Positions 12,984-40,596 of a stretch of DNA of 64,000 nt are shown here, one piece after another. Made by a program: the position numbers and the translations under genes. Source of the stretch: Candidatus Altimarinota bacterium (lineage in GTDB: Bacteria > Patescibacteriota > Gracilibacteria > JAUYGZ01); the NCBI GenBank assembly GCA_029233985.1, contig JARGOK010000002.1, positions 372,001 to 436,000 on the forward strand, written 5' to 3'. Each line of letters opens with the position of its first letter. The first letter of the stretch is position 1. The notes beneath the pieces are model-generated. The model had not been told where the DNA came from. It saw only the letters and a program-made list of their open reading frames with translations, and did not search any database.

Positions 12984-12990
12984 ATAATAT

Positions 12991-13038: not shown

Positions 13039-13058
13039 TCATTGAAATCCTGACTCTC

Positions 13059-17055: not shown

Positions 17056-17061
17056 ATGATT

Positions 17062-17110: not shown

Positions 17111-17134
17111 GCCTTGCGATCATAGCAATCCCCT

Positions 17135-20700: not shown

Positions 20701-23700
20701 CGGACGACACCTTCGCCATCCAAGCTCAAAGAACGAATTCCTCGTGCAGGAATACGGAATTGCATACCAGACGGAATACTGAGAATATCCTCACCAAAGC
20801 TCAATTGGAGAGCCTGGTCAGACTGTACCAGTTGCCCAATCTCAATCTCAAATCCAGCAGTCTCAGATTGAAAAATTTCATCTACAAAGGATTCATTCAT
20901 ATGCAAAAAGAATCGCTGATGATCTAGATCCAATCGCTGGGCCTTTCCAACACTATCCCATATCGTCAGCTCGACATCAGATACACCAGGAGAATCCCAA
21001 CTCCATTCAAGAGTCGCTTTACCAGGTCCTACATTCACACTCGAAACAGGTCGCACATCTAGCTGGTGAACCTTTGATCGCTGTAAATCTGTCAAAGACA
21101 TTTCGAGAACTCGACCTGTATAGGGCAGAGACCGTCGTGCTCTTCCATCTACTGGCTTGAGATAAAGAGCATCTTCGTAGGCCAATAAAATATCGTCTTC
21201 CCAAACCTGTATCACAGGATCATCCAATGGATAATCTTGAATACGAGTTGCTTGATTATTTCGGACAGCCACAACCCCTTCAGTCTGAGAATCAAGCTGT
21301 GAAGTACCTAAAAGAGACTGTTGCACTTCATCAAGATTTCGTCGAGTTTCTTGTACCTGACTCAGGAGTACTCTTTTGTCAACTAAGGCAATCTCTCGTT
21401 CAGATATTTCATCAGAAGCAGGGTATGAAGAACTCACCCGATCAAAAATCTGCTGTTGAGTACTGGCTAATTGATAATCCCCACTTGCCAATTGAGCCAT
21501 CATCAGATTTGGGTCGAGCTGAGACCATGCAGAAATCTGAGATTGGTAAGCCAAAAAGTCTTGCTTCATTTGAGACTGAGCGGATCTCAATCCTTCTACA
21601 CGTTGTGCAAATACTTCCCCTACTTTGTTTTCTGGTCGAGGAATAAGCTGTCTCAAAGAATTAATTTGGACCTGTCCAGGTTTTTCAAAATCACTAAAAT
21701 CAAGATCTGGAAATTCTTCTTTCAAATCCAGGCTCGTACCACCTTGAATACTTGCACTTGGAATTTGAAATCCTTCGATACTTTGACGAAATCCTTCTTG
21801 ATATGATCCAAGGCCTTGTTGAACGGTTCCTCTCAATGCATTTATCCACTGATCGATTCCTTGAGTAAAAGCATTCATTGGCTGATGAAACTGCTGATCA
21901 ATCGTCTCCTGCAGCTGACCAGAAAGGTCTACTTGAGCCTCAGTCTGAAACTGACTCTTCACATCAATACTGTCAAAAGGCACCGCACTACTCAAGAGAT
22001 CAGCTGGAAAGAGATTTAGCTCCAACATCAGATCAATTGGCAAAATCAAATTCCCAGACCGATTAGTCAGGTTTTCTATCTGACTCTTTAAAGACAATTC
22101 AGGAATAGGAATCAACGACTTATTGATCAAGCACCAAATATCCAAAATCGTCTTGATAATCTGCATAATCGGTAAAAACTGCTCGAGTACTCGAGGAACC
22201 TCTGGCGCAGGAGGCAAGTTCGGTAAATTAATCTGCGGAAGATTTGGCAATGGCTGCAGAGGTGGCAAATCTGGTGGTGAAGGAATCACCAATGGCACTT
22301 CTGGCAAGACCACTGAAAAATTAAATCCTGCTTTAAAATCAAAATCATTAAATCGTGGAAACTTCACTTCAGGCAGCTCTGGCCACTTCAGCTCAACTGC
22401 TTTCACATCAAAGACCGGCACCGTCACATCAATCCCCAACTGCACATCTGTGAAATCCAGGTTTACATCCGGCCAGCTTGGAAAATCAATAATCGGAAAA
22501 TTAGGTACCACTCCAAAGAGTACTTTGAGCAGCAAACTCTTCAAGGTGAGTCGATCACTTGTACAGAGTCCACAACTCTTGTTATACCCCTTCAAGATAT
22601 CAATCAGAAGCTTTACCATCGCTACAAACTCGTAGTAAAAGAACGCCGCATCGATCCATAGATCCAATTTCTTTTGGAACTCACTCCACCATCTCAAGAC
22701 TGTTCCCGTCAGCTGATCGATCATATTCACAATCTGAGCCGTGTAGAATTCTACGATATTGAGGTATTTCGCCAGTTGTCGCGGGAAATCCTTCCAGACC
22801 TCGAGAGCTTCAATATTTTTTTGAATCCCAGAGACAAGCGGCGTCACATTCACACTCATATTCAGCGCCAATTTCTTTGCCGCACATTGTCCCAAAGCTT
22901 TCGCTGAAGCATTTTTCGAAGCATTGCTCTCTGAAACAGCATCAAACTGCGAAATATTCTCTCCCCAACTCTTGAGAACCAATTCTGTAAACCCAATAAA
23001 TTCGGGAAGAATTGTAAAGATTCCAGATGGATCACTCAATCTACTCACCGCTAAATCTATTTCATCTTTTCTTTTTTTCACTTCAGATACCTTCACCACA
23101 ATTTCTTCAAACTCTTGAAGATACGCAGCCTTATTTTTAAGAACACCAGAGTCATTATCGAGTTCATTTTTCTTCAAGAAAGCATCCAAAACTTCTCGTC
23201 TCTTCTCTACCGTATCCGCCTTATCTTGAGTATCTTGAAGAGCTCCGATCAACACTCGAATCTGCTCACGAGTCTTTCCTGGTGCCGCAAGAGCCATTCG
23301 GTCTTCAAGAGCATTGAAAAAATCCAAACGATTCACACCAATATCACATGGAAGATTGAACGACTCTACAAACGCTAAAAACTCTATAATAAAAGTGTAC
23401 AAGAATTTATACAGAGACTGTTCTATACGTCTCAACAAGCCTGGTTCGATCCAAGGGATCTGAATCTCAACCGTCTCAGGCTTCAGCTGAACAATTGGCA
23501 AACTATTCACCAAATCATAGACAGCTTGAAGATTCACCACATTTTTTCCCGTTAAACTATCGACCTTACTCGAAAACTTTTCTCGGTAGTCAGCATCGGT
23601 GATCCCAAAAGCATTTTCAGGATATGGCAAACGAACTGTGATATCTGGTAAATCTGTCAGAGAATTAATCACCTCTTCCCATTGCTTATCCCACCAGTTT

Positions 23701-26700
23701 ACAAATATTTTTGGAATGGGCTCCAAAAGAACTTTTGGTTCCATCTGTGTCACACCTTGTGGCTGAATACCGCCTGCGATCCCAATACCGATAAGAGACT
23801 CACCATCACGAGGTGGAGTCGTTGGTTTCGAAGCCTTGATAACACCAGTTGAATTAATCTCATTTTCAACACTCTGTGTAAAAGCATTCACTTGACCAAT
23901 AGCTTGGTTGATTCCTGCAACAATATTTTGAAGACCTGCTTTTGCAGCATCACAAACAGCTTCTCCACCCAATTTATCAGGCGGAACTGCAAAAACAAAA
24001 CACTGTCCAAGAAGCCAAGGTCCCAGACAAATACCAATTCCCAATCCTGCAGTCAACGTCGGTGAAATATATAGTCGTCCTCCTAAACTCCCTTGGTACG
24101 GACTCGGTGGCCACACTGGTATCAAGCTCGGAACTCCCCACGCAAAAACTGGAAGTCCTGGGTCGAATCCTGTCGGCTCACCAAAAACATTAATCGGACC
24201 AGGTGCCAAGAATGCAAAATTTATTGGAAGTGGTAAACACCCTCGAGAACACTTCAATATACTCACTACCCCCTGTACCGAACTCTCGATCCCTTCTAGC
24301 ATCAGATCAGCATTCGCAAGCCCTGCCAATCCTAAATCAATTTGGTTCTGATTATTCGTCTGCGCATTCACTTCTGGCATAAAAGTCTTGAAAAAAGAGT
24401 CACGCAATACATCAAGAGCATCATCTCGAGAAATATTCCCACGGTCTGTAGAAATCATTGGAGGATCCAAGTTTGGATTTTCTTGAAAAACATCAGGATA
24501 ACCATCACCATTTTCATCAACATACAAATCATCTATCAGACCATTTGCATCATTTTCTACCTCTTGTTGTTTTTCCAAAATCTTACTCTTGATAGCCTCT
24601 GGTGACATTCCTTCGACACCTACTCCTCTCAATAAATCACTGAGTTCTTTTCCAACATCTGGCTCAGATCCAGCAGTGTTTTGAGCTGCAGTAATTCCAA
24701 AAGCAATTTCTTCATATGTTCTCGTGCTTCTCGACTCAAAAACTGTAATCGCAGCAGACTGATTTGATCCCACATTCACACCAATATCACCAAACTCATC
24801 AGCATTTGTCTTCAAGATTTGAAGAGAAAAATCTGGACCTTCTTGGTACAAAACAGAAAAACTGAGCGTGATCTGTTCTCCAGCATTCACATTCCCTTGT
24901 AAATTCCAGAGAGCGTCAAGAGGAGATACCAGTTCAAGATCAGTATCACATCCATCACAAACAACTGAACCATTCAGATCAAAGCCGAGACCAAGATCAA
25001 ACTGCAGGGCAATCTCATCAGAAAGAGATGGGGTATAGATCAGCTCAAACTGCAAAACATCTCCAACAGACAATTGCTCTGAAGTTTCATGAGAAAGTAA
25101 ATCTAATTTCATCTGAGATCGAAGGTTTGCAAACTGATCGACTCGAACCAAAGAGCGCTGTTTGACAAAGACTTCTTCTGACGGAACAAATCCAATATCA
25201 TCAGCCTGTTTCTGAAAAGCTTCAAGACGATCAAGTGCAGCATCCTCATCGTCAAAGACAACATTAGAAGACCTAAAGAGTTCTGATCGACAAGAGGGCT
25301 CTTGCGTATCTATACATCCAATCTGCGGCTCAGGATTACTGTTGGACTGAAGCCATAAAGCAGACAAGAAAGAGCTCTTATCCTGTATTCGGACTGCGAG
25401 TGTATTCACCAAAACTCGATCATCTGGCTCAGTCCCAAAGGCATAACCCTGACTCGTATCACGACCATACAACGCCCAGACCTCATGCGATCCATTCAAG
25501 AGCACCAAGTCATCACGAGAATCACCATCAAGATCAGAAATCTGATACTGAGTGATGAGGTCCGACCCCATAAATGAAGAAAAATCTAAACCTCTAGACA
25601 AATACTTGCCATCAATGAGGTCAAAGAACACTACTTGTCCTGTTGTATAAGACGCAAAAAGTGACCCATTTTGAACAACCTCCACTTGATCCACATCAGC
25701 ACCCAAATCAAGCAAATTGCTAACTTTACCCCATCGGTACCCTTCTCCCTGTCCCTCAAAATATTGCACCACACTTCGAGAACCTTCATCTACCACGACC
25801 AAAAGATCATCCTCACCATCCATCTCTATATCTGCTCTCAGAACCTGACGAACAGTACCATTTGGAGGACTATACAAAAGCTGTCCTACCGAATAATCAC
25901 CCGCCGCAAAAATCCGATTTTCCTTTACAACCGGGATTAATTGTCCGAATTCATCTTTGTGACGAGCTTGTCTCAACGAAGCAACAGGGTCACCGAGGTT
26001 GATAATCCCCTCACTTTGCAAAAGAGTGCTCTCTCCTACCGTATTCCCTGCCAAATAATTCAGTGCCATCTTATCTTGTCCACCAAACCCTTGACCATTG
26101 TTATCATACACATCACTCAGAGCAGAGCGCCCTTTTCCCAATCCATAAGTCACGATCTGAGACTGATCAAGAACCACGAGACCTTGTTCATCCAGAGTGC
26201 TCTCTCCTGCATAAAAATCTTCTGTAGCATACTGACCAAGTGGCTCACTAGATCTCCATAACAAAGGAGACACTTCATCCACAGCCACTTTTGCAACATC
26301 AACATCGACATACCATCGAGCCAAAACAGTCGCCCCAATACTAAATTCAAAAACCACCGCATCAACTCCTTCATCGAGTACGGCTGCTTGGATCTGATTA
26401 GAAAAAAAGGTGACTTTACCATTTTGAAAACTCATCAATTCACGACCATCTGTAGCTTTCAAAAGCACGTCAGTATTTCCAAAGTCATCTGGAACAGAAT
26501 TCACTGGCTCTACTACAGACTTCCCTCGATACTGCTCCTTTGACCATTCAAAAGATCCTACTGGACCATCAAAAAGAGAAAAATCTAATTCTCGAGGGGA
26601 AACATAGAGTCTTCCGATTTCATGTTCTGGGTTTTGAAAAACCAAAACAGGCTGACCATTCTCCCATACCAACGAAGCAGAAACCTGAAACCCTAGATCA

Positions 26701-29700
26701 AATCGTCCACTCGGAAAAATACGTAATATTTTTTCAGGACCTCGATGAGGAACAATCTCTGTAGTAATCGTCTGAACAGCTGATTGATCACCGAAAAGTA
26801 CCGCCTGAGCAACCGAATCAACCTGACGATAGTCTCCAAACCCTGCACCACCCAAGACCATATAAGGAGTTTGCCACGGAAGCTGTTGTATCTGACCTTT
26901 CGTCAACATTTGTTCGAGAGAAATAGTGCTCGTTACTTCATCAAACCCATCACCACTCACTTTCAACAACAATCGGTCAGGTCGATCAAGCAAAGTGTTC
27001 TTATAAGCGATATTTCCATCCTTCACAGCCAAGTTTCTCTGATCCAAAACCTTTCCAAGATCTCCAACAAGAACTATTTCCAAAACATTTTCAGGCAATG
27101 ATACCTTATTTCCAAATTCATCTGCACCAAAAATATCAGCTTTCAGTTCTCCATCTCGGTACTCAAATTCTGTGATTTGAAGACGAACAGCTTTTCCTCC
27201 AATAAGCTCAACCTCTTGAGAAATCATACCAAAATTTTCATCATCAATACTGACTCTTAGAATACCCGTTCGACCTCCCACAGGAACGTTCACAAAAGCA
27301 GTTTTTCCTTCAAATGGAGCTGACAAGGATGTCACCTGACCTCCCATTTCCATCTGAACTTCCAGTGAAGTGTTATTAAAATCAACAATCTCACCATCAG
27401 CCTGAACCTGGATCCCAAAACTCAGTTCCTTCCCCACCTGAACTTCAGTTGGCATATTTCTGAGGAATAATTGAGCATCCGCTCCGAGGACAAATGAAGT
27501 CACGCTTGGCAAACGAACCTCATCAAACCCTTCGATACCTAAAACCCGAACTCGAGCCACAGATGAATTAGCTAATCGATTCAATTGCAGTGAAAGAACT
27601 CCTCCAAGAGCAAAATATGTACTCTGTTGATTTTGAGAATCATCATCACCCACACCCTCAAACCCTTCCGTTTCGATCTCTACCACCAAGCTTTCACCTC
27701 TATACGCATTTCCAAAAGAATCCAATATCTGTAGTTCACCAAAGATCTGACCATCTCTCCCAATCACTCCATCTCCAAAATCCCATTCAGCTTGCTGAGG
27801 AGGACCCGACAAAACATTCACCAGCATCAGATCACTTTGTGCAACTCCATCAGCCTCTAGTCGAAATGCAATCACTCCTGCAGATTCATCGGCACCCACC
27901 ACAAAACTCGCCTTCCCATCTCGAATAGAGATATTTCTAGGCACTTCAAGAGTTTTCCCACTCGACACTATCACCTGAGCTTCAAGAGAAGTCTCTACAA
28001 TTACTCTATCAGAATCCACCACCTGCACTTCAAAAGAAATCGTATCTTCAGCTCCTACTTTCAAATCCGCCACCCCTACCTGTCGCACAACCAGTTTTCT
28101 GGAAACAACCTCCACATCCACGCTAACCCGCTTTTCATTCAATAAGTCTCCATAAAAAGCGATCACTTTCCCCTTCCCCACTTCATTCCCAATCACAACT
28201 GCCTTCCCACTCCGCCCAGCTGTCACCTGAACAGCTCCCTCACTTTCCCATCGAACAGGTACACCAATTTCAACATCAAGGAGAGCCTCCACCTGATCCT
28301 GCAACCCAAAGATTTTTTGACTTATAGCAATTTGAGCAGCTCCCTCATTCGAATTTTTTGAATTTTGTACTTTGGATTTTGAGCTTTCTCCCTCTTCTTC
28401 ATCCCCTGGAAAAACAAGAAGTGGCCCTGCCAACATCTCATCCATCCAGCACGTCACCGCTCCTGGCCATTCCACCAAAGAAACACTCTCTCCACATTTC
28501 GAAATCTTGTCACCATTTTTCCGAGACTCTGCCGTACGTTGTTTGAGTTTTTCATTTTGCTTTCGAAGTAATGCTTTTTCGCGCTCAGCCACTTCACGAA
28601 TAACTCCTCGATCGACTCCTAAGTCTGAACCATCTGATTCAAATACTCCTTTCAAATGTGGAAGTGAGACATCAATACGCTCTGCATCTCCATTCATCAC
28701 TAAATAGGTCATTTCTTTTTCTTCTGCCAAAAGACTCAATCCTTCACGATGTTTCGATTCCACACTCAAGTTCAACCAGTGCAAAGCCTGAATCACAAGC
28801 TGTTCATGTTGCTTCACGATAGTATCCAATTCACCTACATCAACCAAATCAACCGGTCCTACGTTTTGAGAAAATGTCGTAAGAGGCTGAGTACCTTGTT
28901 CAGCCTTTTTCAATTGTTCATCAAACAACTTGATCGCAATCAGCATATTTGTATTCGGTGGAACAACTGGTGGAGGCGGAGTAAAAAAGAGCTTTACTGC
29001 AACCAAATCCAAAATTTCCACGTACTTATCAGCATTGTGTAAAATCGCAATATCAACCGTAGCTCCCTCCTTGTTGTCATAAAACTCCTTCAAGGTCTTT
29101 ACTTCATCCTGAGTATTTTTTGCAATAGTGTCACGGCAAGTTCGATCAATCGAGGGTGGATTCACTGTTGGAATAAACAGGTCTGGTGGATCATATATTG
29201 CAGTACTCGGATCAACTTCAGGTAATTGAACATCTTGATCCAAAGGAGGAATTTCATACGCATAGGAACACTCCAAACCCAAATCTTGCTTTGCAAAAGC
29301 CTGTGGAAAAGTCTTCTCAACCTCTTCAAGAACGCTCTGCTCCAAAGCATCAGACCCTTGCCCCTTCAAATACTTCTCCACGACAACATACTCTTCATCC
29401 TGACCGCTCGGATCCAATTCATTTCGCAAGAGCCTCACCACATCCTCTCGATACTCTACAAAACTCTCGTGAAATCCCTCGATTTCATTATAGTTCCAAT
29501 AATCCTGACGACCATCAACTGGAGTGGTATACGCGAGATACCTCTCAAAACGACTCCAGTTTGCTTCCACACGACTCTTACGGAGCTCATTTTCCTTTTG
29601 CTCGATCAGAGTTCGCATTTGAGAAATCACATCTTGATCATCCTTGGATTCGAGAGCAAAAAAATTCGGGTACTGAAATCTCCCCACTTGTCGGTCTTCA

Positions 29701-31673
29701 TACTGCCCAACACCTCCCCAGTTGAAACTAACATGTCGAACAGAGTCGATCGGCAAGTAATGAGCTAATTTCTGTTTCAAAAAATTCTGTACGACATCTC
29801 CTGAAGGTTCGACATGATCGATCACACTCGAAAACCTCTGAATACTCGAGTTTTCGATATCCTTTGGGATCGGTGGCCCTTGACCAATAAAGCAACGTCG
29901 AAAATCATTTTCACCAACAAAGCGATCACTCGAAGCGTAATCATAGAGTGGTTTTTTCGAAAAACGTGGATCACATCGGTCTTTTTCTGCATAAGTACAG
30001 TATCCCACATTTCGATACGCTTCTTTGAGTTCTTCTTTGGCATCACTCCCCCCAACTCCCACCAAATCTTCTTGGACAGTAAGAGGGTTTTCCTTTCGAT
30101 TTGATACGATAGCTTTTCCAAATTCATCATCAGAAGAAAGGAAATTCGACCCACGAACAAGAGAACATTGCTGAGCTTCTGTCAGCTGGTTGATTGGAAA
30201 ACCATTTCCAAAACGAGGGATCTCATCAGAGTCGTACTTAAATTCTTCAAAAGTAAAATAATCATGCTGCAATTTGAAGCGACTCACGAGTTCAATATCA
30301 GACGCCAACAAATCAACCTGACTCAGAATATGCTGTTCAAGAGCACGACCAACTAAAAACAATACCGAGCTGTGGTATTTGTCCATCTTGGTAATCAACG
30401 CTGGGAGTGTTTCTCCATATTGACGACGTCCCGCCACATCCAACAACTCTCCAGCACCAGAGACGTACCGAGACACCACATTGACATAATCCTTGAGCAA
30501 ATTTCGAATCGGTCCTGCAGAAAACAAATCTGGAACCGTTTCTTTCAAATCAGGAGGCAAGATCAATTCTCCATCCAATGCCGTCTCTTCGGATTCTACC
30601 AATGTTGTGGCAGCATTCGCCTCAATAGTGGTCTGCTGAGCATTAAACCCCACATCATTTTCTAATTCTTCTTGTGTAGGCTTGCTCAAGGTCAAAGGCG
30701 CATCTTCAAAGGTTTGCGATGACAGCAAAGATAACCGATCAATAGCCTCACCGGTTAATTGCTGCAACCACTCGCCACTAAAACGAAAATGCATCAAACG
30801 TTCTAAATATTGCAATTTCTTCAAATACCAACGCATCGTCTCATTATCGAAAGAATCATTTTCCCAGTACTGATCATGAAAACCGATCTTCTCCTTCACC
30901 ACAGAATACTGTTCATCTTGAGCATAAAAAGCCTCATTTTTTTCAAAATACCTCACCAACTCATCGACTCGCTCGTCTCCCTCACCTTTTGGACGAATCA
31001 ACCCATGCCAAATCTCTGCCTGGGGTTGATCCACGATTGAACTCACAAAAATCTGCTGATCAGGATCAAACACATACCCAGGATTCACCAGATCGACATA
31101 AGGAAACACACTCGGAAAAGACTCCACTCCACGGTGAACAATCGGAAGAGGCACATCTCCCACAATCACCAACCCCGTCAAAGTTGCAAGACCTTCAGAA
31201 ACCTCCAGCCCCTCGAAATACACTTGCTGAAGAGACTCAACAATACGGGACGCGGTTTCACCACGCCAAGGAGTCAACACACAAACCACTCCCAACACCT
31301 CTTGAACTCGTTCACAATATTCATCCAAAACAGACTCTACAGCCGAAGAATCATATAAATCTCCCTCCACCAAAACTTGCACCATACCAAATTCCTCTAA
31401 ATCCTCAGGTGAAGAGGCTTCAATTTCATTCAATGACGTCTCAAATTGAGAAGCATACACACTCGCCGAAAGCAGTCCAGATTGAGATAAAAGAAGCACA
31501 CTCAAAAAAGCAGCAATACTCCGCTGGAGAGAAGAAAATGAAGACTGATTTTTTAAAAAGAAATGATGAAGAAAAGCACCCACTCCTTTCCAGAAATTTT
31601 TAACGAGAAAACCGGTCTGAAACTCATTCTGATTCACCCAACAAAAACGATAAAATACACCACTAAAAATCAT
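17787..31673 (-). CDS. Giant SLH-anchored surface protein (about 4630 aa)
   Basis: Single uninterrupted gene of about 14 kb. The frame is open from a TTG at 31760; the first ATG is at 31673. Residue numbers below count from the TTG. A hydrophobic export segment lies at about 81-103 (SIAAFLSVLLLSQSGLL), unusually far from the N-terminus. Residues 125-285 contain VIVGDVPLP, PYVDL and a segment like IWHGLIRP, recalling the fold of peptidase C25 (gingipain), but I find no convincing catalytic His-Cys pair. A long beta-rich and linker region follows, with FG-GAP-like repeats near 1975-2080 (DGEDDLLVV, DGDSRDDLVLL) and proline-rich linkers. Near the C-terminus are thrombospondin-3-like Ca-binding repeats (about 4230-4310), three SLH repeats (4310-4550) and a Cys-containing acidic tail. 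SLH repeats should fix it to the cell wall. Probable role is adhesion or cell-cell interaction. Confidence 0.9.
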   Translation of the reverse strand: MIFSGVFYRFCWVNQNEFQTGFLVKNFWKGVGAFLHHFFLKNQSSFSSLQRSIAAFLSVLLLSQSGLLSASVYASQFETSLNEIEASSPEDLEEFGMVQVLVEGDLYDSSAVESVLDEYCERVQEVLGVVCVLTPWRGETASRIVESLQQVYFEGLEVSEGLATLTGLVIVGDVPLPIVHRGVESFPSVFPYVDLVNPGYVFDPDQQIFVSSIVDQPQAEIWHGLIRPKGEGDERVDELVRYFEKNEAFYAQDEQYSVVKEKIGFHDQYWENDSFDNETMRWYLKKLQYLERLMHFRFSGEWLQQLTGEAIDRLSLLSSQTFEDAPLTLSKPTQEELENDVGFNAQQTTIEANAATTLVESEETALDGELILPPDLKETVPDLFSAGPIRNLLKDYVNVVSRYVSGAGELLDVAGRRQYGETLPALITKMDKYHSSVLFLVGRALEQHILSQVDLLASDIELVSRFKLQHDYFTFEEFKYDSDEIPRFGNGFPINQLTEAQQCSLVRGSNFLSSDDEFGKAIVSNRKENPLTVQEDLVGVGGSDAKEELKEAYRNVGYCTYAEKDRCDPRFSKKPLYDYASSDRFVGENDFRRCFIGQGPPIPKDIENSSIQRFSSVIDHVEPSGDVVQNFLKQKLAHYLPIDSVRHVSFNWGGVGQYEDRQVGRFQYPNFFALESKDDQDVISQMRTLIEQKENELRKSRVEANWSRFERYLAYTTPVDGRQDYWNYNEIEGFHESFVEYREDVVRLLRNELDPSGQDEEYVVVEKYLKGQGSDALEQSVLEEVEKTFPQAFAKQDLGLECSYAYEIPPLDQDVQLPEVDPSTAIYDPPDLFIPTVNPPSIDRTCRDTIAKNTQDEVKTLKEFYDNKEGATVDIAILHNADKYVEILDLVAVKLFFTPPPPVVPPNTNMLIAIKLFDEQLKKAEQGTQPLTTFSQNVGPVDLVDVGELDTIVKQHEQLVIQALHWLNLSVESKHREGLSLLAEEKEMTYLVMNGDAERIDVSLPHLKGVFESDGSDLGVDRGVIREVAEREKALLRKQNEKLKQRTAESRKNGDKISKCGESVSLVEWPGAVTCWMDEMLAGPLLVFPGDEEEGESSKSKVQNSKNSNEGAAQIAISQKIFGLQDQVEALLDVEIGVPVRWESEGAVQVTAGRSGKAVVIGNEVGKGKVIAFYGDLLNEKRVSVDVEVVSRKLVVRQVGVADLKVGAEDTISFEVQVVDSDRVIVETSLEAQVIVSSGKTLEVPRNISIRDGKASFVVGADESAGVIAFRLEADGVAQSDLMLVNVLSGPPQQAEWDFGDGVIGRDGQIFGELQILDSFGNAYRGESLVVEIETEGFEGVGDDDSQNQQSTYFALGGVLSLQLNRLANSSVARVRVLGIEGFDEVRLPSVTSFVLGADAQLFLRNMPTEVQVGKELSFGIQVQADGEIVDFNNTSLEVQMEMGGQVTSLSAPFEGKTAFVNVPVGGRTGILRVSIDDENFGMISQEVELIGGKAVRLQITEFEYRDGELKADIFGADEFGNKVSLPENVLEIVLVGDLGKVLDQRNLAVKDGNIAYKNTLLDRPDRLLLKVSGDGFDEVTSTISLEQMLTKGQIQQLPWQTPYMVLGGAGFGDYRQVDSVAQAVLFGDQSAVQTITTEIVPHRGPEKILRIFPSGRFDLGFQVSASLVWENGQPVLVFQNPEHEIGRLYVSPRELDFSLFDGPVGSFEWSKEQYRGKSVVEPVNSVPDDFGNTDVLLKATDGRELMSFQNGKVTFFSNQIQAAVLDEGVDAVVFEFSIGATVLARWYVDVDVAKVAVDEVSPLLWRSSEPLGQYATEDFYAGESTLDEQGLVVLDQSQIVTYGLGKGRSALSDVYDNNGQGFGGQDKMALNYLAGNTVGESTLLQSEGIINLGDPVASLRQARHKDEFGQLIPVVKENRIFAAGDYSVGQLLYSPPNGTVRQVLRADIEMDGEDDLLVVVDEGSRSVVQYFEGQGEGYRWGKVSNLLDLGADVDQVEVVQNGSLFASYTTGQVVFFDLIDGKYLSRGLDFSSFMGSDLITQYQISDLDGDSRDDLVLLNGSHEVWALYGRDTSQGYAFGTEPDDRVLVNTLAVRIQDKSSFLSALWLQSNSNPEPQIGCIDTQEPSCRSELFRSSNVVFDDEDAALDRLEAFQKQADDIGFVPSEEVFVKQRSLVRVDQFANLRSQMKLDLLSHETSEQLSVGDVLQFELIYTPSLSDEIALQFDLGLGFDLNGSVVCDGCDTDLELVSPLDALWNLQGNVNAGEQITLSFSVLYQEGPDFSLQILKTNADEFGDIGVNVGSNQSAAITVFESRSTRTYEEIAFGITAAQNTAGSEPDVGKELSDLLRGVGVEGMSPEAIKSKILEKQQEVENDANGLIDDLYVDENGDGYPDVFQENPNLDPPMISTDRGNISRDDALDVLRDSFFKTFMPEVNAQTNNQNQIDLGLAGLANADLMLEGIESSVQGVVSILKCSRGCLPLPINFAFLAPGPINVFGEPTGFDPGLPVFAWGVPSLIPVWPPSPYQGSLGGRLYISPTLTAGLGIGICLGPWLLGQCFVFAVPPDKLGGEAVCDAAKAGLQNIVAGINQAIGQVNAFTQSVENEINSTGVIKASKPTTPPRDGESLIGIGIAGGIQPQGVTQMEPKVLLEPIPKIFVNWWDKQWEEVINSLTDLPDITVRLPYPENAFGITDADYREKFSSKVDSLTGKNVVNLQAVYDLVNSLPIVQLKPETVEIQIPWIEPGLLRRIEQSLYKFLYTFIIEFLAFVESFNLPCDIGVNRLDFFNALEDRMALAAPGKTREQIRVLIGALQDTQDKADTVEKRREVLDAFLKKNELDNDSGVLKNKAAYLQEFEEIVVKVSEVKKRKDEIDLAVSRLSDPSGIFTILPEFIGFTELVLKSWGENISQFDAVSESNASKNASAKALGQCAAKKLALNMSVNVTPLVSGIQKNIEALEVWKDFPRQLAKYLNIVEFYTAQIVNMIDQLTGTVLRWWSEFQKKLDLWIDAAFFYYEFVAMVKLLIDILKGYNKSCGLCTSDRLTLKSLLLKVLFGVVPNFPIIDFPSWPDVNLDFTDVQLGIDVTVPVFDVKAVELKWPELPEVKFPRFNDFDFKAGFNFSVVLPEVPLVIPSPPDLPPLQPLPNLPQINLPNLPPAPEVPRVLEQFLPIMQIIKTILDIWCLINKSLIPIPELSLKSQIENLTNRSGNLILPIDLMLELNLFPADLLSSAVPFDSIDVKSQFQTEAQVDLSGQLQETIDQQFHQPMNAFTQGIDQWINALRGTVQQGLGSYQEGFRQSIEGFQIPSASIQGGTSLDLKEEFPDLDFSDFEKPGQVQINSLRQLIPRPENKVGEVFAQRVEGLRSAQSQMKQDFLAYQSQISAWSQLDPNLMMAQLASGDYQLASTQQQIFDRVSSSYPASDEISEREIALVDKRVLLSQVQETRRNLDEVQQSLLGTSQLDSQTEGVVAVRNNQATRIQDYPLDDPVIQVWEDDILLAYEDALYLKPVDGRARRSLPYTGRVLEMSLTDLQRSKVHQLDVRPVSSVNVGPGKATLEWSWDSPGVSDVELTIWDSVGKAQRLDLDHQRFFLHMNESFVDEIFQSETAGFEIEIGQLVQSDQALQLSFGEDILSIPSGMQFRIPARGIRSLSLDGEGVVRLNRSSGVEWDMILGEQVQLVVSGDTDANAEGGQTVRVPALSRHPFIKTVNDEVVGLVRQRREILSGERLENTQFLATQATTLQAQEERLQMSLQAGDVFSAQAGETWTIMSGRGYSIVSEQLENRVLEAGFVILNGELVTGDVQVEEFGEVTRLYPQQEVAWFDVDESRFEVTLPVGQYYGRAREREGIRGFSPILHGSARQVFSGAQILDGQETISLPIYAPLKLSAAQYVIGNLPDESYQWDIEGENGVIIGSSLSYPGFTSVGDREVTLFVRNGDDQVVSKSLVIRVMYPELSIDEAVLQSSRVLRVQVDPSFAGVPIGVVAERDGVSDWFRQDITNGEVRGDRFLTNADGILEFAPLPEKRGHTIVIDEGREVATLYQNGRVVLLPDFIDTCNNTPLIDEEGYLSFRVSCLDQGLMVHKFDSTMIPHLDTDVGIVQTFTSLDSGVSVRKMQDALDVVALGEGSEFVRGGVQVLDVDDQVLMVIGPNGVIQSLDGPFDIATREFIDPEEPLVWRVERNGVLLVELRVKGDGDKVTIVDPKEGSPLKGDQDGDGILDQWELEYSVTDPNQDPDNDGLNNYQEFAQGTHPKKPDTDADGVLDGEEIEQGADPLDRKSGDQLVRFDDVNESNPYFESITRLAELGFIQGYGDGTFKPDQSVTRAEALKIIMSVIRCENCEKPSADTVEEFDPGLSGLDEFVAFHEGEFAVGSQELSAEERLKIFAFDKSVLEGKVDEIGTYFDVSSSDWFYFCVEIATQLGLVNGYKGFEDGVNALGSFIPSRGVNIAELMKVVTEAIGKGGKVSDRVYGSPDGWWNDPENNYLARAEEDLQLLIYEEDYANPLRTATRAEVAYAAYRVLTQNSEADLDEDGIANDGDKCPCLAEDFGDFDVADGCPDPESDQLFGPVLFDPRSLPELYSGIEITQMLECRCLAVVPADLLEGTVFYAVITGIETAVKEVLVKSQEVRYE

Positions 31674-31828
31674 ACCAAAAAAAGGCCTACAAGTGGATTT
31701 CAATGGGGTTATCAGACCATCTAAGCGACGAAGGAAAAGGGTCCTTTTAAGACCAGACAAGAATATGTAAAAAAAGCGAGAAACACCTCAAAAATAATGA
31801 AGAAACATTGCCCAATATTACAATTAAA

Positions 31829-34669: not shown

Positions 34670-34698
34670 TCAAAATCAAAACCAAAAGCAAAATCACA

Positions 34699-34882
34699 AG
34701 TCTGCCGTCACCGAAGAACAAAATCTACCCTTCTCGATCTAAAGAGAAAACGTGCCCAAAAACCAACTCACGTGAACAATAGACAACCCTCTATTTTCAA
34801 GGAAATCAGGTACATTCGTCCAATCTCAAAAGACAAATCCACAATCAGCTTTAGACTGACATAATTGAAGCAACTGAAGAAG
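34699..34882. repeat. 184-bp direct repeat, copy 1
   Basis: Matches 38161-38343 in the same orientation with nine differences counted by eye (one a single-base indel), about 95% identity. The two copies bracket a 3.28-kb segment holding the ATPase-DUF4435 gene and the YHYH gene. Confidence 0.9.
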
Positions 34883-35067
34883 TTGTACTGCACTATATTC
34901 ACCAGACAAAGATTTTGAATAGTATCTTCAGTTTGAGTTTTTGTAAGGTGAGCTAAAAATTCAAATTCATTTTCTGTGCACTCCGAGTTCGGATAATAAG
35001 CAAAAAAGTGGTGTTGACAGGTAAACAGTTCGTATATACTGGAGATGTATGACATGCATGTTTTCCT

Positions 35068-35083
35068 TGGGGCTGTCGCCCCA
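35068..35083. repeat. GC-rich hairpin immediately outside the left inverted repeat
   Basis: TGGGGC and GCCCCA pair over 6 bp around loop TGTC. The hairpin ends one base before the 31-bp inverted repeat begins. It could be a terminator remnant or part of a mobile-element end. Confidence 0.6.
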
Positions 35084-35114
35084 GCTCTTAAAAAGAATCC
35101 GATTTTGTTTTCCT
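35084..35114. repeat. 31-bp inverted repeat, left copy
   Basis: The reverse complement of this segment matches 36895-36925 at 30 of 31 positions; both hold the core AAACAAAATCGG. A further shared block, AGAGGGGAAT, lies just inside each copy at slightly different spacing. Confidence 0.9.
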
Positions 35115-35141
35115 TTTTTAATAGAGGGGAATATAGTTGAT

Positions 35142-35162
35142 TTCCTCAGCACAACTGAGGAA
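35142..35162 (+). promoter_or_regulatory. Perfect hairpin upstream of the ATPase-DUF4435 gene
   Basis: TTCCTCAG (35142-35149) and CTGAGGAA (35155-35162) form an 8-bp stem with loop CACAA, 54 bp before the start codon. It may be an operator or leader structure. A TTGA at 35138 just before it could be part of a -35 element. Confidence 0.5.
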
Positions 35163-35215
35163 CTACTCTAAATAAATAGACCGTGAGACTCAAATAAGTT
35201 TAAAACAACCAAATC

Positions 35216-36838
35216 ATGACAAATTCAGAAAATATAGAAGTCAAGATCCCCCCAGATCAAACTATTCCGGGCACACACCCTATTATTATTATTGGGCCAA
35301 ATGGTTCAGGGAAAACTACGTTCGGATCACAACTAGCGATTCAAAACAATGCTGAATGGATACCTGCAACCAGGAATTTGGAATTTGCAGATTCAATTCC
35401 AATGCAAACTACAGTACAAGCTCAGAGCGTTCATTCAAACAGCAAGAACAAACAACGTAATGAAATTTGGCGACAAGCAAATGATCTGATCAATTTATTA
35501 GCAAAACTAAAGGCTGAAGAAAACGAAGAAGCAATTGCATTCAAAAGGGCATACAGAAGCGGAAAAAGAGAAGACCCGCCACTTACGAAGATCGAAAATC
35601 TAACTGGCATATGGAATTCACTTTTTCCTAAAAGAGAAATTAATTTTTCTTCTTATTCCCCAAAGGTAAAAGCAAATCACAGAACCAACCCTGCCCCATT
35701 TGCAATTGGAAGAATGAGTGGTGGAGAAAGAGTCGCATTATACCTACTTGCAAGAATCATTGATGCCCCCATCGGAATTATAGTCATAGATGAACCAGAG
35801 CTACATTTTCACGGAGTGTTAGCTAGAAAATTTTGGAATGCTCTAGAAATTTTGAGAACTGACTGCCGTTTTGTCTACATAACACATGATTTACCATTCG
35901 CTCTTTCACGTAATAATCCTCAGTTCATAATTGTCACATCTGAATCAAATCATCAAATTCTACCTCCACAGACTAATATTCCTGATGAAATAATTGAGAG
36001 CGTACTTGGTGCAGCATCTTTCTCAATTTCTGCAAAAAATTTCATATTTTGTGAAGGTAGTAAACTCAATAAAAAGGATAATGAACTTTATTCAGCGTGG
36101 CTTCAAGATGACAACACGGTCATAATACCTGTAGGCAGCTGTGAAGAAGTAATTAAGTGTGTAGAAGTCTTTAATAGCAATGAAGCAGTAATAGGACTTC
36201 AAGCAAAAGGCATTATTGATCGGGATTTTCGTTCAGATGAATTTCTCTCACAGCTTCCAGAGAATATCCAACCTCTTTCCCTGCACGAAATTGAATCTCT
36301 CTATTGCACCAAAAATGTATATGCAGCCGTTGCCAAATACATGGGAGTAAGTGCTGCCGATATAGAAACAGCATACAAAAACTTCATCAGCCAAGTAAAA
36401 CAACATTTTATTAGTAACCCATTGGAAAAAAATAAGATTATTCTTGAGAGGACAAGACAACGCACCGAAGAGAAATCAAAAAGCCTTCTAAATGGATTAC
36501 ATACAGAAACAAATATCGATATTGTAAAATCAAGCTATTTAGCAGCACTAAACATTACCAATTGGTCATTCTCTCCAGAAAATTACTTCGATGAGGAAAA
36601 AACCAGAGTTGAGACAGTTTTGGAAGAAGCAGCAACAGCCGAACAATTATTAATAATTTTACCAGGAAAAACACTATTCTCACGTATAATAAATAGCCTT
36701 GGAATTACCCAAGAAAGTTTTCTGAATTTAGTAATCTCTGCATTAAATACCACTTCTGAAATAAAAAGCAGCCCTCTGAAAACTCTAAAAACAGAGTTGA
36801 TTGCAGCATTGCATTCACACAAGCCATTTCAAGAATAA
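35216..36838 (+). CDS. Fused ABC-ATPase + DUF4435 (TOPRIM-like) protein; PARIS AriAB/OLD-like defence candidate
   Basis: A 540-aa cytoplasmic protein with two halves. Residues 20-265 are an ABC/AAA_15-21 type ATPase: Walker A GPNGSGKTT (27-35), signature MSGGERV (167-173), Walker B IIVIDEPE (188-195) and switch His in ITHD (222-225). Residues 270 to about 400 look like DUF4435: FIFCEG with Glu280, then GIIDRDF with Asp335 and Asp337, and LHEIESLY. These form the acidic E...DxD set of a TOPRIM nuclease. The C-terminal 140 residues are helical. PARIS systems pair an ATPase (AriA) with a DUF4435 TOPRIM effector (AriB) and exist in fused form; OLD nucleases have the same order. The gene stands alone, framed by inverted repeats, which fits a mobile defence module. 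Function is inferred from domains, not shown. Alternatives are an OLD-family nuclease or another conflict ATPase. Confidence 0.82.
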   Translation: MTNSENIEVKIPPDQTIPGTHPIIIIGPNGSGKTTFGSQLAIQNNAEWIPATRNLEFADSIPMQTTVQAQSVHSNSKNKQRNEIWRQANDLINLLAKLKAEENEEAIAFKRAYRSGKREDPPLTKIENLTGIWNSLFPKREINFSSYSPKVKANHRTNPAPFAIGRMSGGERVALYLLARIIDAPIGIIVIDEPELHFHGVLARKFWNALEILRTDCRFVYITHDLPFALSRNNPQFIIVTSESNHQILPPQTNIPDEIIESVLGAASFSISAKNFIFCEGSKLNKKDNELYSAWLQDDNTVIIPVGSCEEVIKCVEVFNSNEAVIGLQAKGIIDRDFRSDEFLSQLPENIQPLSLHEIESLYCTKNVYAAVAKYMGVSAADIETAYKNFISQVKQHFISNPLEKNKIILERTRQRTEEKSKSLLNGLHTETNIDIVKSSYLAALNITNWSFSPENYFDEEKTRVETVLEEAATAEQLLIILPGKTLFSRIINSLGITQESFLNLVISALNTTSEIKSSPLKTLKTELIAALHSHKPFQE

Positions 36839-36894
36839 GGTGTATGGGCTCCGGGCATTCACCCCTTTAATTCCCCTCTGCCCTCCGCCTCAAT

Positions 36895-36925
36895 AGGAAA
36901 ACAAAATCGGGTTCTTTTTAAGAGC
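36895..36925. repeat. 31-bp inverted repeat, right copy
   Basis: Partner of 35084-35114, beginning 56 bp after the stop of the ATPase gene. The 12-bp word ATAGGAAAACAA at its inner edge (36893-36904) recurs directly at 36943-36954. Confidence 0.9.
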
Positions 36926-36959
36926 ATCCCTCCTTCGTCAGGATAGGAAAACAAGCACA

Positions 36960-37046
36960 TCATACATCAGCGCACTATCCATCATATCTCATGGTTAAAA
37001 ACCCTACCATTTCGATTCGACGGATCAGTGCGCAAACGATGTATGA
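36960..37046. repeat. Long imperfect inverted repeat next to the right 31-bp repeat
   Basis: TCATACATC plus GCGCACT (36960-36976) pair with AGTGCGC (37027-37033) plus GATGTATGA (37038-37046), leaving a loop of about 50 bp. It lies just beyond the stop of the minus-strand YHYH gene and could serve as its terminator or as a structured element end. Confidence 0.6.
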
Positions 37047-37054
37047 CATACCCT

Positions 37055-38098
37055 CTACCGTCCCCCACGACCACCAGTCCTTACAGAAGCATCACACGCT
37101 ATCCCCTTTTCATCGTGAACACAACCAGATTCACCATGATAACAACCCAAGATCTGATTGGCACCTTTCTCAGCCACATGATAATGGTATGGAAGGTCAT
37201 TACTGGCATGACCATTACACTCATCCAAATCAGTTGGGGCTGTCCCATCGAGGTTTAGCTGTGTATGCATGGCATATCCATCAAGAGCTAGACCAATAAC
37301 TGGCGCATGCTCATCATCCACGATGATCTGATCAGGACAATCTGTGGCAGCATGATAATGATAGCCTACGTGAGGATTCACATGGCCTCCACAGTCGTCA
37401 AAAGGAGCAATAGTATGTGCTGCAAGGATCGCATCAACTGGTGCGGGAGCATCATAGCGCACTCCATTGAAAGCAATCCCAATCCCATTTTGATTATTGA
37501 TAGATTGGACAGTCTTCCCAGGCACTGGCTCAAGAGGAATAGTGTAGGTCACTTCAGGAAGTTCTTCGAGATAGCTAATCTGACACTCCACACAATGATT
37601 GTGATAAGCCTCGTCTACATCTGGACGGGCTGCTGCTTCGCAAGCTTCTTTGGTATCAGTAACATATATTTCACCAGTGGCTTCATCATAAAGCTTCCAT
37701 TGTTCATCCTCATAAAACGCATTGAGGTTTGCAACAAAAGTCCCATCCACTTCATATGCTTCATTATTCTCCAACCACATCCCACCAGCTTCAGCTCCAG
37801 CATCAGTAATATTTGTCGGACACCACGGGCCAACTGTTTCAGTACGAGGAGCTTGAATGGTAGTAAACTGAAAACACTCCGTCTGCGTTCCAGCAGACAA
37901 GGTACATTCTACAATAGAAACATCACTCACAAGCGCATCTTCACGAAAAGAATCCGTAATAACGTCTATTTTTTCCGCATATTCAGCACTCTCCAGCATC
38001 ACTACAGGCAGCGTACTAAGAGACGAAGTCTTCAAAAAAGCACTCCACACAAAACCAATAAACAAAGCAAACAGCACCACAAGAATATATTTTTTCAT
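37055..38098 (-). CDS. YHYH-domain exported protein
   Basis: A 347-aa protein anchored or exported by an N-terminal hydrophobic segment (MKKYILVVLFALFIGFVW). I use the ATG at 38098 because it gives a clean signal sequence; the frame opens at 38131. The C-terminal half contains the family-naming YHYH tetrapeptide twice (VGYHYHAA, LPYHYHVA) among many Asp, His and Cys residues, including GGHVNPH and CNGHASND, which look like metal-binding clusters. YHYH proteins are widespread secreted proteins of unknown reaction. It lies inside the segment bounded by the 184-bp direct repeats, with copy 2 beginning 63 bp upstream of its start, and is convergent with the ATPase gene. Confidence 0.85.
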   Translation of the reverse strand: MKKYILVVLFALFIGFVWSAFLKTSSLSTLPVVMLESAEYAEKIDVITDSFREDALVSDVSIVECTLSAGTQTECFQFTTIQAPRTETVGPWCPTNITDAGAEAGGMWLENNEAYEVDGTFVANLNAFYEDEQWKLYDEATGEIYVTDTKEACEAAARPDVDEAYHNHCVECQISYLEELPEVTYTIPLEPVPGKTVQSINNQNGIGIAFNGVRYDAPAPVDAILAAHTIAPFDDCGGHVNPHVGYHYHAATDCPDQIIVDDEHAPVIGLALDGYAMHTQLNLDGTAPTDLDECNGHASNDLPYHYHVAEKGANQILGCYHGESGCVHDEKGIACDASVRTGGRGGR

Positions 38099-38160
38099 GA
38101 GAATTTTTTTTATATGAAGAAAATTGTACAAATATTTCTAAACAGAAAGTCAGCACTATA

Positions 38161-38343
38161 AGTCTGCCATCACCAAAGAACAAAATCTACCCTTCTCGTC
38201 TGAAGAGAAAACGTGCCCAAAAGCCAACTCGCGTGAACAATAGACAACCCTCAATTTTCAAGAAAATCAGGTACATTCGTCCAATCTCAAAAGACAAGTC
38301 CACAATCAGCTTTAGACTGACATAATTGAAGCAACTGAAGAAG
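38161..38343. repeat. 184-bp direct repeat, copy 2 (183 bp)
   Basis: Partner of 34699-34882. Its right end overlaps the last codons of the broken small gene at 38312-38554. The copies differ at nine positions. Confidence 0.9.
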
Positions 38344-38697: not shown

Positions 38698-39411
38698 ATG
38701 AAAAGATTCAATGGTGCAGCTGGAGATGATTACGAGCTTTTTGAAAAGGCTTGTCCACATTTTGAAGAGCTAGAAAACACGCTTGGAAAAACTCTTCAAG
38801 AGCATTTTAAAAAAATCGACATTGATGAAATAAAAGTGCTCGAAATAGGCTGTGGGCCAGGTTTTACGAGCTTGATTATTTTGGAGGCAGACGATAGAAC
38901 AAACGTAACAGCTATAGACAACGAACCAGTGATGCTTGCACAAGCAAAAGACATCTTGCAAAGATACATTAAAAACAAAAAAATTGAGCTGATACAAGCT
39001 GATGCTCTAGGTTTCCTCAAAAAACAAGCGTCATACACCTTTGATGTTTTTGCTTCAGGCTTCACTTTGCATAATTTCACAAAGAAATATAGAAAAGAGG
39101 TTTTGAAAGAAATTTATAGGGTATTAAAAAATGGAGGAATATTTGTAAACGCTGATAAATATGCACTCGACAATAAAGTGGAACACACCAAAACCTTAGA
39201 TTGGCAATTAGCTCAATTTCAGAAAGTATATACAAAATTAAAACGCTCTGATCTCAGACAAGAATGGACAACTCATTACTTAGAAGATAACAAAGCAGAG
39301 ATCATCATGAAAGAATCTGCGTCCAAAGTCTCAATGGAAAAAAGTGGTTTTAAAAACATAAAAACCGTCTTTCGTAAAAAAATGGAAGCTGTGATATTTG
39401 CTCAAAAGTAA
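38698..39411 (+). CDS. Class I SAM-dependent methyltransferase
   Basis: A 237-aa soluble methyltransferase with the Rossmann motif I VLEIGCGPG (about residues 45-53), an acidic residue at the end of strand 2 (TAIDNE) and the post-motif region VLKNGGIFVNAD. It most resembles the methyltransferase 11/25 group that modifies small molecules, but the acceptor is unknown. Its last 47 bp (39361-39407) recur almost exactly at 40353-40399 beyond the next gene. The coding sequence itself is complete, and the start ATG is followed by a normal fold. The upstream 140 bp are AT-rich without a clear -35. Confidence 0.88.
   Translation: MKRFNGAAGDDYELFEKACPHFEELENTLGKTLQEHFKKIDIDEIKVLEIGCGPGFTSLIILEADDRTNVTAIDNEPVMLAQAKDILQRYIKNKKIELIQADALGFLKKQASYTFDVFASGFTLHNFTKKYRKEVLKEIYRVLKNGGIFVNADKYALDNKVEHTKTLDWQLAQFQKVYTKLKRSDLRQEWTTHYLEDNKAEIIMKESASKVSMEKSGFKNIKTVFRKKMEAVIFAQK
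39361..39407. repeat. 47-bp direct repeat, copy 1 (3' end of the methyltransferase gene)
   Basis: Identical to 40353-40399 at 46 of 47 positions, 992 bp apart, in the same orientation. Flanking sequence on both sides differs. Confidence 0.92.
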
Positions 39412-39437
39412 TTTGAAGAACACATACCTTGAAAAAA

Positions 39438-40283
39438 TCACAGATCCACCACTATAGATGCTCTGAATCTAGCATCAGGATCTACAAAACGAGGATCTAC
39501 AGGGTAAAAACAAAGTTGGCTAGAACCCCAACTAGCAGCAGCAACAAAAAGGCTTTCTGAACGAGAAGATTGATCTAAAACGGTAAGAAATTCTCTATCT
39601 ATACCTTGACCAGCCTGAGATAAGGCATTCAACTGAAGCAATGAATATTGTAATTTATTAACTATACTGAGTTTTCTTTGTTCATAGTCATTCGTAGTCT
39701 TCTCCAATTGATCAGAAATAGGCTCATTCACATATCGATTACTATCTACAGGCAATACTGGAACACCTTCTGTCACAGCCACCTGCCAATTAATAATTTT
39801 TCCATCTGTATCAGAAACATCTGAATTATATTTCCACGGCATATAGAAAACTGCACGAATAATACAAGAAACTGGCTTTAATACACGTGAAAACCCATTT
39901 GCTTCTTGGCCTTCTTCAAAAACAGGAACAAGCTGAAAAACTGGTTCTTTCATAAGCTTAATTTCCTCAATCAAATCTGGATTGATCATCAAATGCTGAT
40001 AAAGTGCAATAATACACTGATCAATCTTCGGAATATCTGCATCAAAATCTGGCCGATGGTAATTATTCTGTTTCATCGTATTCAAAGATACAGTATATCC
40101 TTTATTTACTATTTCATGTAACTCAGGATGAATCAAAAGCATGGCTTCATTTATTCTGCCATTTCTGATATATAATTCTCCTAATTTAAATCGGGAATTG
40201 TGATCTCCAGGATTTTTTACAATTCGCCTTTCTAGATTGGCCATCATATCTCTAAAACCAGATATGCTGTTTTTTGAAAACAT
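39438..40283 (-). CDS. Hypothetical protein, 281 aa, with TPR-like N-terminus
   Basis: Not recognised. The first 55 residues (LERRIVKNPGDHNSRFKLGELYIRNGRINEAM) fit one or two tetratricopeptide-like helices, often used for protein binding. The remainder is a soluble mixed region without catalytic motif. No signal peptide is present. It stops with TGA, rare in this genome, and its product ends VVDL. The gene lies between the two 47-bp direct repeats and on the strand opposite to the methyltransferase, so it may have arrived as an insert. Confidence 0.72.
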   Translation of the reverse strand: MFSKNSISGFRDMMANLERRIVKNPGDHNSRFKLGELYIRNGRINEAMLLIHPELHEIVNKGYTVSLNTMKQNNYHRPDFDADIPKIDQCIIALYQHLMINPDLIEEIKLMKEPVFQLVPVFEEGQEANGFSRVLKPVSCIIRAVFYMPWKYNSDVSDTDGKIINWQVAVTEGVPVLPVDSNRYVNEPISDQLEKTTNDYEQRKLSIVNKLQYSLLQLNALSQAGQGIDREFLTVLDQSSRSESLFVAAASWGSSQLCFYPVDPRFVDPDARFRASIVVDL

Positions 40284-40352
40284 AAAAAGTAATTATTTAC
40301 ATCTCATGATTATAACATATTTTCCATAATTTTTCATTAAAAATAACGAGAA

Positions 40353-40399
40353 AAAACCGTCTTTCGTAAAAAAATGGAAGCTATGATATTTGCTCAAAA
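40353..40399. repeat. 47-bp direct repeat, copy 2
   Basis: Partner of 39361-39407 with a single G-to-A difference. It contributes the -35-like TTGCTC to the candidate promoter of the small gene that follows. Confidence 0.92.
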
Positions 40400-40457: not shown

Positions 40458-40556
40458 ATGGAAATCATCTTAAGCTGGGGTTCACCAGTAGGAATAGCAA
40501 TATTTATGGCAGGATTAGGAGTGTTTTTTTGGGGGCTAACAAAACTCTGGAGATAA
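40458..40556 (+). CDS. 32-aa single-span membrane protein
   Basis: ATG at 40458, TAA at 40554. The product starts MEIILSWGSPVG, continues with one hydrophobic helix of about 17 residues (IAIFMAGLGVFFWGL) and ends with a basic TKLWR. This is a typical small inner-membrane protein layout with a positively charged end. The overlapping 66-codon frame from 40418 lacks any such order. Function unknown. The gene has a plausible promoter of its own. Confidence 0.6.
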   Translation: MEIILSWGSPVGIAIFMAGLGVFFWGLTKLWR

Positions 40557-40596
40557 GGCATTTCATGACCTATTTCAAATTCAGGGAGAGGTTTTT

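Follow-up and report, generated by a model that had tools for sequence, protein, structure and literature searches.

The genome analyzed here (1,658,297 bases, i.e., 1.66 Mb, in 5 contigs) carries what we hold, with a probability of about 85%, to be an integron-like cassette system, on the basis of its hairpins, its cassette ends and its array. The window, i.e., the whole 64-kb stretch of DNA that was analyzed (bases 372001-436000 of contig C5), contains an outlying piece of this kind with a single cassette. Next to it lies a 48-nt direct repeat (repeat R2), which encloses one gene and probably marks a small gene insertion. The coordinates of the features are collected in Table 1.

Table 1. 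Features of the window, and cassette 2 of the main array (positions are those of the window unless a locus is given)
Feature	Position	Strand	Remarks
R1, left copy	34698-34882	+	direct repeat, 185 nt, 95% identical
Promoter/attI-like copy	34953-35048	+	91.7% over 96 bp with the main array region; identical 59-nt run from 34986
Gene cassette	35044-37037	+	1,994 bp; limits taken from end inverted repeats and attI/attC core
Cassette start arm	35044-35117	+	cassette-specific inverted repeat
AAA ATPase, AriAB (PARIS defence) type, putative	35216-36838	+	PADLOC PDLC02982, E 7.5e-69, over 518 residues
Cassette end arm	36892-36968	-	complementary to start arm
attC-like hairpin	36956-37058	+	103 bits with covariance model R2 (E 2.3e-25), for which this copy served as one of eight sources
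YHYH-domain protein	37058-38098	-	PF14240; right of attC, inside R1 frame
R1, right copy	38160-38343	+	R1 frames attI-like region, cassette and YHYH gene
Class I SAM methyltransferase	38698-39411	+	PF13649, E 9.6e-18
Repeat R2, left copy	39360-39407	+	3' end of methyltransferase gene
Segment between R2 copies	39408-40351		944 bp, one minus-strand ORF
281-aa ORF	39438-40283	-	TPR hits under curated cut-offs
Repeat R2, right copy	40352-40399	+	outside listed ORFs, 47/48 identical
Cassette 2 of main array	L084 17104-18525		UG13b-type reverse transcriptase (DRT defence), putative; PADLOC E 9.2e-127

Main array and hairpins

The main array is localized on the same contig as the window piece, at about 290 kb from it (C5:114597-123610, i.e., L084 14597-20000 and L036 1-3610). 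It is composed of a gene for a 273-aa recombinase, a promoter/attI-like region and seven cassettes, the recombinase gene being divergent from the cassettes. The genome contains only two PF00589 recombinase genes, one of which adjoins the array. The region from the integrase to cassette 1 is found a second time in the window, and another genome (G001) has a match of 73% to it. The hexamers TTGACA and TATACT are 15 nt apart; the promoter scan covered spacings of 16-18 nt and did not list this pair.

The direct-repeat copies found in L036 correspond to an imperfect hairpin which is also present in the window. A covariance model of this hairpin was built from five copies and the genome was searched at E up to 1. 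Eight hairpins were obtained (weakest E 0.003), seven on one strand at C5:116852-123610 and one in the window. In the alignment of the eight hairpins, 84.6% of the cells pair, against 20-34% in slid controls, and 11 of the 20 pairs have changed on both sides. Pairing and covariation were judged by five measures: in four of them no shuffle out of 500 equalled the alignment, in the fifth 38 did; it must be noticed that the structure was derived from the same alignment.

The conserved core is GCAAAC^G(T/A)T at attC-like sites and GGA^G at attI. The cores in the own genome are GTTGTAT, GTTGTAG, GTTGCAT, GATATAC (twice), GATATGT, AATATAT and GATGTAT, and those of the four best cassettes of other genomes are GTTATAT, GTTAGCT, GTTAGAC and GTTATGT. 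The R' core of integrons is GTTRRRY.

Besides cassette 2, the array cassettes contain a HAD hydrolase and, as judged from sequence alone, an HD-domain protein and an amino-acid oxidase-like protein. The AriAB and UG13b genes of the cassettes are putative defence genes, the PADLOC match extending over most of their length.

Inverted repeats at the cassette ends

In each cassette, the sequence at one end forms an inverted repeat with that at the other end, weakly so in the case of cassette 6 (c6). When each end was scored against each start for the eight cassettes, the own start came on top in 8 of 8 rows, with scores of 50, 91, 52, 35, 39, 27, 66 and 67 versus 12-28 off the diagonal. The end repeat of c6 is the weak one (27 vs. 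24 for the next best). Pairing starts at most one base from the core in seven of the eight cassettes, and 11 bases inside the cassette in c7.

The same test was applied to other genomes, with 64 of 69 hairpin matches (left out: one in L154, opposite in strand to a match that was stronger; L165 7891; L161 3101; L160 5821; L151 9616). These gave 47 neighbouring pairs, reduced by two on account of their length (<150 or >4,500 bp). In 32 of the 45 intervals (15 genomes; best off-diagonal score 54), the own start is the best of all 45 starts, and in 13 it is not. By hand count, it is the best in 23 of the 25 intervals of at most 1,100 bp and in 9 of 20 longer ones; some of the longer intervals probably hide an undetected hairpin.

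Predicted folding (DNA parameters) was compared for the junction of a free circle and for the integrated form. The values range from −26.0 to −77.4 kcal/mol for the circle junction and from −20.5 to −35.3 kcal/mol for the integrated form at the seven array sites, and reach −74.6 vs. −25.4 kcal/mol for the window cassette. Cassette c6 is again the exception (−26.0 for the circle vs. −23.8 integrated), and the best mismatched flank reaches −29.9. In the mechanism that we propose, the recombinase would cut at the conserved core. Both ends, joined in the excised circle, would lengthen the attC hairpin to a long stem, which would be split between neighbouring sites upon integration. Such a split would favour capture over loss; this bias is put forward tentatively.

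The recombinase and its distribution

Residues 7-178 and 197-272 of the own recombinase align with residues 4-179 and 241-316 of IntI4 (2a3v). The gap between both blocks is 18 residues vs. 61 in IntI4, i.e., about 43 residues are missing, at what we take to be the place of the IntI additional domain. The own recombinase lacks this additional domain, as do the clade members wherever they were examined for it. All 11 clade members tested score 185.5-222.5 bits with TIGR02249, under its cut-off of 265. The best curated match is NF040815 (site-specific tyrosine recombinase/integron integrase) for 10 of the 11, and 5 of the 11 pass its cut-off of 220. Between KGxKxR and HxLRH, 18 of 20 clade sequences share a spacing of 58; one has 65, and the remaining one ends early at a stop. 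A separate Xer-like gene of about 310 aa, 32% identical to the array recombinase, is found in the own genome and in others.

Of 379 genomes of the phylum, 47 (own genome included) have a match to the recombinase at E 1e-50. Of these, 28 are outside the class; all matches but the own one are 37-58% identical. Among the 80 matches listed, relatives with at least 45% identity over more than 200 residues are labelled as Patescibacteria, Peregrinibacteria, Moranbacteria, Gracilibacteria and one «bacterium»; the host would thus belong to the same phylum. Hairpins were found at E 0.01 in 52 of 288 genomes of the class, and 25 of the 52, own included, were followed up. In 20 of these 25, a clade recombinase was identified with an E of at most 1e-58. 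The five without a full one are G138 (partial), G285 and G253 (weak), and G204 and G225 (none at E 1e-20). Recombinase and hairpin lie on one contig with the same divergent layout in 9 of the 20 (own included, by our tally), while the listed hairpins are on other contigs in 11 of 20. The hairpin was also sought in 17 of at least 80 named recombinase loci, with E 3e-4 in L175 (Peregrinibacteria), 0.15 in L184 and 0.48 in L190. Since L175 is the only clear match among the 17 loci, the hairpin model is tuned to the class.

It could be proposed that there is no cassette system, the hairpins being simple terminators or dispersed repeats and the recombinase a plain Xer. The hairpins do sit between genes and the recombinase does fall under the curated IntI score. 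On the contrary, seven of the eight hairpins form one array on one strand beside the recombinase, and that geometry recurs in the 9 of 20 genomes mentioned above. Moreover, the Xer-like gene of about 310 aa is distinct, and the two ends of a unit pair much better with each other than with the ends of other units. This explanation is highly improbable and the integron-like cassette system is preferred.

The window cassette and repeat R1

The attI-like copy and the cassette of the window are framed, together with the YHYH gene, by the two copies of R1, which are the only ones in the genome. A search for an integrase remnant left of the attI copy gave no clear candidate, 12 of 200 and 4 of 200 shuffles scoring as well in two frames. 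No homolog of the AAA, YHYH, methyltransferase and 281-aa proteins of the window was found in 20 array loci at E 1e-3.

Eight other genomes of the class have loci that match sequence of the window cassette ends (E <1e-5); in G138, the matches lie at both ends of a cassette. The G138 cassette (L164 2808-5468) has the same ends as the window cassette (88% over 66 bp at the start) and other genes, and this sharing suggests an exchange between genera. The genes of the G138 cassette encode a 607-aa protein and what resembles, by eye, a RadC-like protein.

A total of 790,634 bases of the genome were surveyed for direct repeats within 6 kb, with a minimum length of 26 nt and a minimum identity of 85%. 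When repeats in repetitive or duplicated genes are excluded (by our reading), R1, R2 and the L036 hairpin copies are left. R1 and R2 lie within 5.7 kb of one another; since, hairpins aside, they alone remain in the survey, they are neighbours in a genome with few repeats of this kind. A pair of 47 nt in L067 was checked and set aside, being inside one frame of 1,452 codons.

Repeat R2 and its setting

The copies of R2 (48 nt, 47 identical) are separated by 992 nt from start to start. The repeat of 47 bp with 46 identities, from 39361, described in the sequence-only reading is R2 without the first base. When a 39-nt pattern taken from R2 was searched over 1,658,297 bases, allowing 3 mismatches, exactly these two copies were obtained, and the same pattern read backwards gave none. 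In the self-BLAST of the window the pair has an E of 6e-16, and the flanks have no clear similarity outside the repeat, thus the edges are sharp. A chance match is rejected on these grounds (47/48, two copies genome-wide, E 6e-16).

The left copy stops inside the last sense codon of the methyltransferase ORF, at the second base of this codon, and the right copy overlaps no listed ORF of at least 60 aa. The GC content of the 944-bp interval is 0.337, vs. 0.404 for the window and 0.346 for the methyltransferase gene. The ORF list and a domain search gave no recombinase in the interval, and no tRNA was found in the 64-kb window. Rfam families searched on the window and L036 gave only rRNAs, all in L036. 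Between the ends of the insert there is no inverted repeat (score 14, equalled by 433 of 500 shuffles), and the 48-mer has no core dyad of inverted arms (equalled by 302 of 500 shuffles). The hairpin model finds no attC-like hairpin at R2. Neither terminal inverted repeats nor a transposase was found for the segment, which does not qualify as a transposon or IS. R2 was also considered as an attC or as a cassette and rejected (no hairpin, no end repeat, no dyad).

Orthologs of the two neighbours were sought in 40 relatives (own genome included). None of these relatives is of the same genus. For the methyltransferase, the best match besides the own one is 25% identical (E 3.4e-8); for the VTT protein, the right-hand neighbour, the own genome alone was retrieved. 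Single-protein scans of genome_contigs and viral_contigs with the methyltransferase, which reach close relatives only, found none. At 40459-40557 (+), a short frame of about 32 codons resembles, by eye, a small membrane protein.

The enclosed gene and its family

The gene inside R2 encodes a protein of 281 aa on the opposite strand. The sequence-only reading had mentioned such a gene with a rare TGA stop: the gene and its stop are as described, but TGA closes 5 of the 43 selected window ORFs of at least 100 aa and is thus uncommon and unremarkable. An alternative genetic code was rejected as its cause, the genes of the window being well read with table 11 and TGA serving as a stop in these five ORFs. 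Relatives with an in-frame TGA do exist in the other genomes searched.

Of 288 genomes of the class, 14 (own included) have a match to the family, and all matches but the own one are 20-35% identical. A nine-member family profile matches a 319-aa protein of the own genome (hhalign probability 99.3, E 7.4e-21), and a profile holding both the 281-aa and 319-aa proteins has exactly these two members genome-wide. This paralog, the sole other family member of the genome, occupies cassette 1 of the main array. Plain BLASTP gives no link between both proteins. Since the family of the R2 gene also fills an array cassette, the R2 cargo may come from a shared gene pool.

Sixteen of the 19 loci of the family were used for a repeat check. 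In none of these 16 is the end of a neighbouring gene repeated around the family gene. Long repeats of 75-93% identity are found in five (L014, L015, L019, L030 and L031): those of L015 and L030 are within the family frame and those of L031 in adjoining frames. In L014 (1754-1870 and 2242-2358) and L019 (1497-1610 and 1054-1167), the family gene's own 3' end is copied 443-488 nt downstream with 77-79% identity, a faint parallel to R2. In L021, short tandem heptamer-like arrays (1398-1442 and 2375-2419) flank the relative on both sides. No attC-like hairpin was found near the family gene in the 19 loci, with about 1.5 kb of flank each. It was also observed that in L015 (1381-3318) the relative is fused to two DUF4256 stretches, and that its genome (G063) has six family matches.

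Origin of repeat R2

A one-gene segment would have entered the methyltransferase gene at its 3' end, in an event that left 48 bp of this gene on each side of the insert, so that the gene kept its end. No empty R2 site was seen, as no close relative was found, thus insertion is what we infer. We give even odds to a one-gene insertion in which the 48 bp would have been duplicated by homology-assisted or illegitimate recombination, or by copying by a repair polymerase. R2 is without integron-like signatures, so its tie to the cassette system rests on nearness and gene family only. It is rather likely, on the whole, that the region from 34.7 to 40.4 kb is an insertion-prone spot with two layers, i.e., the one-gene insertion at R2 and the adjoining outlying integron-like piece.

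Integrative elements can duplicate att sites at the 3' end of genes, and the sequence-only reading had considered R2 as typical of site-specific integration; it had overlooked R1 and the upstream integron-like cassette. As in such elements, the gene end stands on both sides of the insert and the gene is preserved, so the anatomy fits. Unlike them, the R2 segment has no integrase and no core dyad, is of about 1 kb only, and its repeat exists in two copies only. With no recombinase, tRNA, inverted ends, dyad or attC-like hairpin found, integrase-driven integration is unsupported, and a recombinase acting on the 48-mer would not be the favoured route. R2 could still be the attL and attR of a mini-element of about 1 kb with the methyltransferase 3' end as its target, moved by a tyrosine recombinase in trans: the length of the block and its position at a 3' end resemble attachment sites, and the two PF00589 genes of the genome could serve. 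Both genes, however, sit elsewhere on the contig, and neither the dyad of the 48-mer, nor the inverted repeat of the ends, nor further copies in the genome were found. The enclosed protein, moreover, has no relatives in phages or plasmids (E 0.01) or in the viral_contigs scan. Such a mini-element is unlikely.

To the same degree, it is unlikely that the methyltransferase region was once duplicated in tandem over a greater length and that deletions have left R2 as the remnant. Tandem duplication is common, the own genome has a tandem gene family (L050 1233-3040, similar small genes in direct repeat), and the repeated 3' ends in L014 and L019 go in this direction. But the copies of R2 are 98% identical and similarity is lost abruptly on both sides, whereas a decaying copy would fade gradually unless deletions occurred at both edges. 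A second, decaying full methyltransferase at the right copy, which the sequence-only reading had named as evidence against an insertion, was sought in the DNA alignment and none was seen. Still less likely, the 281-aa gene would be a former cassette placed by the integron-like system, its attC since lost. The position of its sole paralog as cassette 1 and the stray attI-cassette-attC upstream, with a hairpin 2.3 kb from the left R2 copy, are compatible with this origin. Nevertheless, cassette integration should duplicate a few core bases and not 48, the R2 segment has no end inverted repeat, and relatives of the gene elsewhere are not beside hairpins. The one-gene insertion is thus retained for R2, which, taken alone, is a modest mark of gene gain.

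Comparison with known systems

The system resembles integrons, among them the archaeal integrons of Ghaly et al. 2022 (PMC9668308), by: (i) a recombinase gene divergent from a one-strand cassette array; (ii) an attI-like site with promoter-like hexamers; (iii) imperfect bulged hairpin sites, often with a G^TT-like core; (iv) a lone cassette apart from the integrase and defence genes as cargo. It differs from integrons by: (i) a recombinase without the IntI additional domain, about 43 residues shorter than IntI4 and under TIGR02249; (ii) long cassette-specific inverted repeats on both sides of the presumed cut; (iii) cores which are GTT, GAT or once AAT in the own system. To our knowledge, ordinary integron cassettes have no long cassette-specific inverted repeats at their ends. 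Length and domain plan are those of XerA, XerC and XerD (NF040815, TIGR02224, TIGR02225), from which the array recombinase differs in being distinct from the Xer-like gene of about 310 aa and in adjoining a cassette array. Unlike known PARIS (AriAB) and UG13b genes, each of those described here is the gene of a cassette.

According to Ghaly et al. 2022 (PMC9668308), the additional domain defines IntI, and this applies to Archaea as well. Complete integrons were counted with IntegronFinder in groundwater bacterial MAGs (PMC12259885), and the subject terms had no match in PMC12455944. No description of integrons in Patescibacteria was met in the titles and abstract beginnings among the matches listed from the open-licence literature, preprints aside; an earlier description elsewhere is possible.

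The properties described above are compatible with a separate integron lineage in Patescibacteria, a proposal for and against which we see equal chances. It would be characterized by an Xer/IntI-like recombinase devoid of the IntI domain, a hairpin completed only in the free circle with strong capture and weak excision, anti-phage cargo and stray attI-cassette copies. If this is true, a phylum of reduced, mostly uncultured bacteria would be added to the integron-type gene collectors, with a recombinase that does without a domain held to be defining. A hairpin complete only in the free circle would give a physical reason why capture could beat loss. Tools requiring the IntI domain would probably miss such systems.

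Other features of the window

An open frame of 4,657 codons is present at 17787-31760 (-). A direct repeat of about 130 nt (12915-13044 and 16990-17116, 76% identity) has each of its copies close to a gene start.
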